Assembly: GCF_000745475.1 (NCBI RefSeq)
Contig: NZ_JQJJ01000008.1
Location: 620,001-684,000 of the forward strand
From: Allobosea sp. UNC402CLCol
GTDB lineage: Bacteria > Pseudomonadota > Alphaproteobacteria > Rhizobiales > Beijerinckiaceae
Reading direction: 5' to 3'
Length of the DNA stretch: 64,000 nucleotides
Positions 41,927-44,050 of the stretch are shown in pieces. Below the pieces are notes generated by a model. That model was not told where the DNA came from, did no database searches, and saw only the letters and a list, made by a program, of their open reading frames with translations. Position 1 is the first letter of the stretch. Each line of letters begins with the position of its first letter. The translations under genes were made by a program, and so were the position numbers.

Positions 41927-44050
41927 ATGAGCCCCATGAGTCGCGAACGTCAGGACGATCTACCGCAGGACGAGTTCGAGGACGAGGAGGACGCCCTCCC
42001 CGCCGAGCCGGCGCTCGACATTGCCGAGGCCGCCCCCGGCGCGCTCAAGGCCGGCATCGAGGTCATCCAGCAATTCGCCAAGCACCTGCCGAACAGGCCG
42101 GGCGTCTACCGGATGTTCGATCGCGCCGGCGAGGTGCTCTATGTCGGCAAGGCCAAGAGCCTGAAGAACCGCGTGACCTCCTACGCCCGCGGCATGGCGC
42201 ACACCAATGCTGTGGCGCGGATGATCGCCGAGACGGCGAATATGGAGTTCGTCACCACCGGCACCGAGACCGAGGCGCTGCTGCTCGAGTCGAATCTGAT
42301 CAAGCAGCTCCGGCCGCGCTACAATGTGCTGCTGCGCGACGACAAGTCGTTCCCCTATATCCTGCTGACCGGCGATCACGAGGCGCCGGCGATCCTGAAG
42401 CATCGCGGCTCGCGTCATCGCAAGGGCGATTATTTCGGCCCCTTCGCCTCGGTCTGGGCGGTGACGCGCACCATCGACGCGCTCCAGAAGGCCTTCCTGA
42501 TCCGCACCTGCTCGGATTCCTTCTACGAGAACCGCACCCGCCCCTGCCTGCTCTTCCAGATCAAGCGCTGCGCCGGCCCTTGCACCGGCGAGGTCTCGAT
42601 CCCCGATTATCAGGCGCTCGCCGGCCAGGCCCGTGATTTCCTCTCAGGCCGCTCCTCCGCAGTGAAGCAATTGCTCTCGACCCGGATGCAGGCCGCCGCC
42701 GAGGAACTCGAATTCGAGAAGGCGGCGCGCTACCGCGACCGTCTCGCCGCGCTCTCGGCCGTGCAGGCCGGGCAGGACATCAACACGCAAGGCGTGGAGG
42801 AGGCCGACGTCTTCGCCATCGACGAGCAGGCCGGGCAGTTCTGCGTCGAGATCTTCTTCTTCCGCAACCATCAGAACTGGGGCAATCGCGCCCTCTTCCC
42901 GCGCGCCGACCGCTCGTTGACCCCGGCCGAGGTGCTCGCCTCGGTGGTCGCCCAGTTCTACGACGACAAGCCGCCGCCGCGCCTCGTCCTACTCTCGCAT
43001 CCGGTCGAAGAGATCGAACTGATCGGCCAGGCGCTCTCGGCGAGGGCCGGCCGCAAGGTCGAGGTCGCCCATCCCAAGCGCGGCGAGCGCGCCGACCTGA
43101 TGGCCCATGCCGTCAAGAATGCCCGCGAGGCGCTTTCCCGGAAGCTCGCCGACAATGCCGGCCAGAGCGCGCTGCTCGCCGCGCTCGGTGCCGCCTTCGG
43201 CATGGAGACTGCCCCGCGCCGCGTCGAGGTCTACGACAACTCCCACATCATGGGCACCAACGCGGTCGGCGGCATGATCGTCGCCGGGCCCGACGGCTTC
43301 ATGAAGAGCCACTACCGCACCTTCAACATCTCGACCGACACCATCGCCGGCGATGATTTCGGCATGATGCGCGAGGTGCTGACGCGGAGATTCGCAAAAC
43401 TGGCGAAGGAAGAAGGGATTCCTCTGAGCCCCCACCCTGAGGAGGTCGCGTCAGCGGCCGTCTCGAAGGATGCTCCAGAGGGCGACGGAGCCTCGACGAC
43501 CATCCTTCGAGACGCGCCTGCCGGCGCTCCTCAGGATGAGGGCTCGGGCGGAAAAAAACGAAAGGCGGCCAAGCCGCGCAAGGATGAGGATGGCTTCCCG
43601 TCCCGCCCCGACCTCGTCATCGTCGATGGCGGCAAGGGCCAGTTCGAGGCGGCCCGCAAGATCATGGCCGAGCTCGGCGCCGTCGACATCCCGCTTGTCG
43701 CCATCGCCAAGGGGGCCGACCGCAACGCCATGCGCGAGACCTTTCACATGGCCGGCAAGGAGCCGTTCAAGTTGCAGCCCCGCGATCCCGCGCTCTATTT
43801 CATCCAGCGCCTGCGCGACGAAGCCCATCGCTTCGCCATCGGCACCCATCGCGCCAAGCGCAAGCGCGAGACGATGAAGAACCCGCTCGACGAGATCCCC
43901 GGCATCGGCCCCTCCCGCAAGCGGGCGCTGCTGCTGCATTTCGGTACGGTGAAGGCGATCCAGCGCGCCAAGCTCGACGACCTCATGCGCACCCCCGGCG
44001 TCAACGCCGCCACCGCCAAGGCCGTGCATGATTTCTTTCACGATGCCTGA
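41927..44050 (+). CDS. uvrC: Excinuclease ABC subunit C, with an in-frame repeat insert
   Basis: UvrC makes the dual incisions of nucleotide excision repair. Its 707 residues exceed the usual 600-690. Order: acidic N-terminal tail (1-40), GIY-YIG nuclease ([20 protein letters not shown], about 50-130), Cys block (RCAGPCTGE), UVR motif (about 245-280), C-terminal RNase-H-like endonuclease ([20 protein letters not shown], then [12 protein letters not shown]), and tandem HhH ([17 protein letters not shown], about 655-705). Residues about 503-539 are encoded by a palindromic repeat (43434-43542) placed between two parts of the nuclease domain. Start may be the ATG at 41936. Confidence 0.96.
43434..43542. 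repeat. Palindromic repeat inserted in frame within uvrC
   Basis: A roughly 109-base imperfect inverted repeat. Left arm begins ACCCTGAGGAGG and contains GTCTCGAAGGATG (about 43459-43472); the right arm contains CATCCTTCGAGAC (43501-43513) and ends CTCCTCAGGATGAGG. The matching core stretches are CCTGAGGAG and GTCTCGAAGGATG. Its sequence is like intergenic palindromes common in Hyphomicrobiales (recalled, not searched). It keeps the uvrC reading frame open and adds about 37 residues. Confidence 0.85.

Follow-up and report, generated by a model that had tools for sequence, protein, structure and literature searches.

Repeats inserted in frame in protein-coding genes are viewed as selfish DNA that the host tolerates or, at times, puts to use, Rickettsia being the main example. 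Rickettsia palindromic elements (RPEs) lie in frame in Rickettsia genes and, according to the accessible part of one account, nearly half of those of R. conorii are in ORFs (PMC10969869). Among alphaproteobacteria, REPs with the terminal tag CGTC, and dimers of them, have been described, CCTC being one variant of the tag (Di Nocera et al. 2013, PMC3733652). That paper also reports REPs inside genes, often genes of DNA repair such as excinuclease ABC, a case in which recB of two Xanthomonas has a different REP at nearly the same position, and unusual loops in Bradyrhizobium CGTC-1; its authors speculate that inserts in repair genes alter DNA repair. Br-REP1 and Br-REP2 of Bradyrhizobium are multi-palindrome repeats, placed in intergenic regions and 3'-UTRs by the portion of the source at hand (PMC5082802).

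The locus described here, the uvrC gene of the window (the whole stretch of 64,000 nt that was analysed), is of a known kind, an in-frame palindromic repeat in a permissive loop; what is new is that, within a genus, one loop has again and again exchanged one repeat for another. The repeat, called the A element hereafter, resembles the CGTC REPs in being an alphaproteobacterial inverted dimer, with CCA-like tails, cases in excinuclease ABC and, as read by eye, A-T pairs at the stem start. Of the traits of the CGTC superfamily, the terminal tag (CGTC or its TGTC/CCTC variant), the CCA-like tail and the dimer were all found, but not the loop of 4–5 nt, the A unit having a longer, structured one. 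Nor are many families in one gene loop across a genus described in the available sections on CGTC REPs (PMC3733652). The likeness to RPEs, drawn in an earlier note on this DNA, holds for the mode of insertion: in both, palindromic repeats lie in frame in several unrelated proteins, here those of uvrC, ispE and probably the 5-formyltetrahydrofolate cyclo-ligase gene. In contrast to the R. conorii proportion given in the accessible part of that account, one of 32 places in the source genome is inside a Pfam domain. Br-REP1 and Br-REP2 are likewise multi-palindrome repeats of related Hyphomicrobiales, but a comparison by eye shows consensus sequences different from that of the A element, and coding copies are not described in the portion at hand (PMC5082802). 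A literature search, at title level and with subscription journals mostly outside it, found neither a report of repeats in uvrC of Bosea nor one of several repeat families turning over at one UvrC loop.

The palindromic element in uvrC

The product of the window gene, whose nearest named relatives are from Bosea, has the Pfam domains GIY-YIG, UVR, UvrC_RNaseH, UvrC_RNaseH_dom and HhH (Table 1). The A element lies wholly within UvrC_RNaseH_dom (residues 423–638), between YDNSH (436) and LVIVDGG (563), and the frame is open across all 707 codons, in agreement with the earlier note, which had placed it inside the catalytic half of uvrC. We take the catalytic residues of UvrC to be the Asp in YDNSH, the Asp in VDGG and the His in DEAH. 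Two nested inverted repeats were detected, with outer arms of 19 nt (89% complementary) and inner arms of 17 nt (94%). The RNA fold of 43424–43552 has -84.6 kcal/mol (z -6.4), whereas 200 dinucleotide shuffles averaged -57.3 (sd 4.3) and none was as low. With these repeats, the fold, the open frame and the further copies described below, the palindrome that the earlier note described in uvrC is real. The limits then given, 43434–43542, were right to within about 7 bp at each end; the family alignment makes the element slightly wider, ~118 bp, and the in-frame stretch encodes 40 residues instead of about 37.

Table 1. Positions of uvrC, of the A element and of the surrounding loop in the window
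Feature	Positions	Strand	Basis
uvrC, excinuclease ABC subunit C, 707 aa	41927..44050	+	ORF; Pfam domains; NCBIfam uvrC
Hypervariable loop, residues 486–560, before PDLVIVDGG	43382..43606	+	UvrC alignment; AlphaFold; first part is the helix end
A-family palindromic element, in frame, residues 501–540	43427..43544	+	Inverted repeats; RNA fold; family alignment; covariance model
Outer arm, 5' side	43426..43444	+	Inverted-repeat search
Inner arm, 5' side (CGTCTCGAAGGATG + flank)	43459..43475	+	Inverted-repeat search
Inner arm, 3' side (CATCCTTCGAGACG + flank)	43498..43514	+	Inverted-repeat search
Outer arm, 3' side	43527..43545	+	Inverted-repeat search
Basic loop tail, lysine-rich	43547..43606	+	dN/dS 0.17 among 12 relatives, computed from about 43550 on

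An AlphaFold model made with 43 sequences (mean pLDDT 75.2, pTM 0.53) gave pLDDT below 50 at residues 505–554, between a helix (477–496) and a strand (563–567); low values are expected there because few of the 43 alignment rows share the insert. The best fold matches of the model were C-terminal halves of UvrC, e.g. 2nrv, 2nrt and 8b0q. The 3c65 chain aligns to residues 420–500 and 555–705 of the query with nothing between, and the 2nrt chain to 420–491 and 561–694 with three chain residues between. The insert is also not conserved in distant UvrC proteins, and with the further copies in the genome neither of the two findings named in the earlier note as refuting its reading was made. The low pLDDT and the absence from the solved chains make it most likely that the insert forms an exposed, disordered loop of the RNase H nuclease domain, as the model suggests; the tolerated surface loop that had been put forward as one possibility is in line with this.

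Dispersed copies and coding copies of the A family

In the source assembly (G000; 5.6 Mb, 16 contigs), BLAST with the element, which scored the best 40 of 98 candidates, gave at least 53 matches with E <= 0.001. A covariance model made from 17 copies, which scored the best 150 of 4782 candidates, gave at least 54; both counts include both strands. Since a palindrome matches both strands, matches were collapsed into places, at least 23 full-length and at least nine partial. The family is dispersed and, as the earlier note had it, mostly non-coding; the word "abundant" used there is somewhat strong for this genome, where the places number at least 32. Among genomes sampled from the GTDB family, the covariance model matched 47 of 119, in 21 of 43 genera.

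The consensus of the 17 copies (~118 bp) has outer arms CCCTCATCCTGAGGAG / CTCCTCAGGATGAGGG and inner arms CGTCTCGAAGGATG / CATCCTTCGAGACG, together with small side hairpins of variable length. Its ends are inverted, as in a MITE, a class defined by terminal inverted repeats, a target-site duplication and a partner transposase, and the tag CCTCATCC stands at both outer ends; the 5' end of the window copy reads CCCCACCC. CCA-like tails occur on the inner side of each unit, nTCCAG in unit 1 and CTGGAn in unit 2, the latter being altered in the window copy. The stem typical of CGTC REPs has 8–9 bp, the first and second pairs being A-T. By eye, ATCCT/AGGAT and, after a 2-nt bulge, GAG/CTC make 8 bp per unit, whereas computed folds pair the two units together instead; a further small hairpin of variable length lies between the stem halves of a unit. 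Three of 33 predicted pairs were changed on both sides, all within one side hairpin. A search of Rfam at gathering score gave no match in seven loci representing the loop types A, B, C, A+D, E, G and F introduced below. Most likely, the A element is a non-autonomous, presumably mobile palindromic repeat in which two REP-like units, ending in CCTC and bearing CCA-like tails, form an inverted dimer.

Reading frames spanning all 32 places in the source genome were listed. Besides uvrC, 25 ORFs of at least 150 aa were found over 20 of the places, and all were scanned with Pfam (19 + 6). Five had a domain, each lying beside the element and never containing it: a LysR regulator, an M20 peptidase, a short-chain dehydrogenase, a transporter component and a NicO protein, with the repeat before the domain in each. 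Half an element may encode part of the N-terminus of the NicO protein. Among the scanned ORFs of this size, uvrC alone carries the element within a Pfam domain. A coding pre-adaptation of the A element was considered but found no support: 52 of 138 frames were open in the 23 full-length copies, versus a mean of 63 (sd 4.9) in shuffles.

For the genus, 20 open-frame places were picked from the matches listed by a tblastn search with UvrC, and the 37 ORFs of at least 150 aa around them were scanned; with such a start and chosen places, the search favours the uvrC reading frame and is no census. In-frame copies outside uvrC, which the earlier note had thought worth counting, were found among these. 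In three genomes (G015, G047 and G019), ispE (loci L223, L232 and L235) has the A element in frame, within the enzyme that it encodes; at that spot the G019 protein has 73 residues, versus 25 in the solved chain 1uek. In the element tree, the ispE copies sit near the uvrC copies. One 5-formyltetrahydrofolate cyclo-ligase gene (G003) probably carries a coding insert as well, the element lying between an apparent N-terminal part and the matched domain. A MurG-like ORF (L227, G062) was discarded as a candidate, the element preceding its sole recognised domain. At L225 (G021) the element is behind a PhnJ domain, close to a contig end. In the other domain-bearing ORFs of the 37 the element was before the domain, and the remaining ORFs had none.

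Contents of the UvrC loop across Bosea

Sixty-seven Bosea genomes were sampled. UvrC was matched in 66 and the loop could be read in 64. Left out of the loop counts were G033, where UvrC gave no match, and G021 and G064, in which contig ends cut the gene; in G021, the match at C255:16460 suggests a B-type loop. Loop types were assigned by hand from alignments and comparisons, without a classifying program. One loop (L124) was labelled A by its position and its likeness to A loops, without a match to the element, and L163 was moved from the tRNA type to none because no tRNA-Met match was found there. The 64 loops comprised 21 A, 3 A+D, 11 B, 5 G, 3 C, 1 E and 7 F, and 13 were without a recognised repeat or tRNA piece ("none"), eight of the latter forming a sister clade. 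Some sister species do lack the A element, an absence that the earlier note had proposed to look for, but with the A family in the loops of 24 of the 64 genomes the window copy is not alone and is probably not recent.

Besides A, four types of dispersed palindrome (B, C, E and G, 20 loops together) occupy the same loop; each of them, like D, recurs elsewhere in genomes that have it in the loop. Families B, C, D and G may form one superfamily, judging by short stretches that they have in common. Further copies were found for B in G015 and G020 (none in G000, and the uvrC flank only in G006), for D in G014 and G003, for C in G012 and G023 (one weak match in G000), for G in G039 and G047 (none in G000), and for E in G009 and also in G000. 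The E copies of G000 indicate that a repeat family can occur in a genome without occupying its uvrC.

The F loops (L137, L140, L144, L147, L148, L149, L158) hold 28–32 nt of the 3' end of a tRNA-Met(CAT) gene, a kind of segment used by integrases as attachment site. In L158, 28 of 28 nt are identical to the tRNA-Met of G001. The tRNA-Met(CAT) gene itself is about 100–110 kb from uvrC on the same strand (G000, G001, G006, G018). A whole tRNA gene in these loops was rejected, since ARAGORN finds none in L137, L144, L147 and L158; the 3' end alone is present. In three loops, L161 (G003), L162 (G014) and L164 (G019), D is nested in A, at about the same junction by eye.

Two neighbouring observations concern single records. 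In G054, an A element (C35:258572-258689) is directly upstream of uvrC, whose match starts at 258785. A UvrC named Methylobacterium sp. ZNC0032 (P0024) is 95% identical to the Bosea protein, and by this identity the record is probably a misnamed Bosea.

Decay, turnover and alternative explanations

Selection was estimated among 12 relatives whose A loops are equally long. The dN/dS ratio was 0.66 in the element and 0.15 in the preceding helix, the basic tail and the core giving 0.17 and 0.06; in other loops it was 0.57 (B), 0.44 (F) and 0.76 (the element-free sister clade). Stem pairing, given as outer/inner arms, was 0.82/0.72 in 20 uvrC copies, versus 0.93/0.94 in 22 other copies of the source genome and 0.97/0.97 at 20 places selected from other genomes. 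Therefore, the reading frame is kept while the inserted peptide and the hairpin drift; a ratio below 1 allows for weak constraint on the peptide.

Turnover was counted on a tree of the uvrC core with the loop removed, comprising the 64 genomes and two outgroups; the outgroups L039, L040 and L051 were left out (failed motif search), and L170 and L174 are short cores. Loop type changes at least 28 times on this tree with eight labels, a total that the reassignment of L163 did not alter, and at least 22 times when labels are merged to four (20 once the 12 decayed A loops are removed). When well-supported branches only are considered, B still changes at least nine times, A at least seven and F at least six, the last with L163 counted as F.

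How the same types came to be in distant species can be explained in more than one way. Old loop alleles, each of single origin, may have been passed between Bosea species via short homologous recombination in the conserved flanks instead of being inserted anew in each, which is compatible with a tolerated loop and which we hold as a tentative idea, somewhat less probable than its converse. It is consistent with the element tree, in which the 20 uvrC A copies cluster versus 42 others (two label changes versus 17.3 in shuffles), in a poorly resolved topology with one non-uvrC copy intruding among them. The B-type 5' half, searched in the 67 genomes at up to two mismatches, gave 16 matches, 13 of them in uvrC (12 genomes, that of G021 being assigned by its position beside the cut gene) and three elsewhere; at three mismatches, 17 further matches appeared, one in uvrC. 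The three A+D species are non-sisters on the core tree, and among the matches listed for G014, G003 and G000 none outside uvrC spans both parts. Labels B and F are unclustered on the tree, A being clustered, and two pairs have close flanks (L142/L145, 0.077 versus 0.130 in the core; L142/L146, 0.103 versus 0.139). Such pairs are exceptions, however: next to the loop, distant pairs of one type are overall no more alike than the remainder of the gene predicts (463, 405 and 107 of 500 label shuffles were as low for flanks of 60, 120 and 240 bp on either side), so that exchange carried along with the flanks has no overall signal. Trees of separate core parts, without four rows, likewise need 24–28 changes. 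Moreover, same-type distant loops are about as divergent as four-fold sites (0.327 versus 0.305 for A, 0.305 versus 0.301 for B), A+D loops being closer (0.214 versus 0.288), so that exchange, if any, would be mostly old. We prefer a history of old insertions, after which deletion, replacement and perhaps early recombination would have acted during a fast radiation.

Other explanations concern the reason why the insert is kept. Domestication of the insert, giving UvrC a useful linker (the second possibility raised in the earlier note) or a contact site, would fit the constant length of 75 residues in the 12 relatives, the constrained basic tail and the length of main-clade loops (108–315 nt), but the high dN/dS of the element, the shortened forms (L123–L126), the exchange of contents for unrelated sequences, the pairing lost in many relatives and the five of 56 main-clade loops without repeat or tRNA piece leave the linker unsupported, and we consider it unlikely. 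Still less probable is a hairpin kept for its action in mRNA or DNA, for example through slowed translation or as a recombination signal. Folds with z < -3 were indeed found in 26 of the 64 loops, versus none of 70 UvrC loops of other genera (72 loci tried, two without a loop; 40 shuffles each), yet pairing has decayed in many uvrC copies, 12 of the 21 A loops fold weakly (z above -2), and no tRNA-type or unmarked loop passes z < -3. An assembly error or a uvrC pseudogene is very improbable for the window: its gene is open, full-length database proteins (P0003–P0007) are 98–99% identical to it over the whole length, and 62 of the 64 loops have a length divisible by three. Some genomes may nevertheless contain errors, the frame being shifted inside the loop in L164 and L168 and split upstream of it in L174; unless these are assembly errors, loop insertions may break uvrC in the first two.

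The best explanation, with a probability of about 0.8, is that a palindromic repeat inserted in frame into a tolerant, non-conserved UvrC loop whose content has since been lost, shortened or replaced. An A repeat would have entered this loop of the RNase H domain most likely in the ancestor of the main Bosea clade, and would be translated as about 40 disordered residues at the turn between the helix and the strand bearing what we take to be the second catalytic Asp. The insert would survive because the loop tolerates extra residues; selection would maintain the reading frame, leaving the peptide and hairpin largely free to decay. The permissive loop would repeatedly have lost, shortened and replaced its content, so that species differ in repeat family or in carrying the tRNA-Met 3' end. 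As uvrC is over-represented, with inserts in most main-clade species and few other coding copies found, a purely permissive loop is by itself an insufficient explanation. Possibly, although we lean against it, the Bosea loop is a standing site of capture and exchange, which repeats and the tRNA-Met 3' end entered, sometimes nested, and whose alleles moved between species without the remainder of uvrC.

In one loop of a repair nuclease, 64 genomes display different inserts, stages of decay, nesting and empty states, and the gain, decay and replacement of protein-coding repeats thereby become directly countable. If capture and exchange did take place, this one surface loop would be a natural archive of the mobile DNA of the genus. 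It also offers a simple test of whether in-frame inserts change DNA repair.
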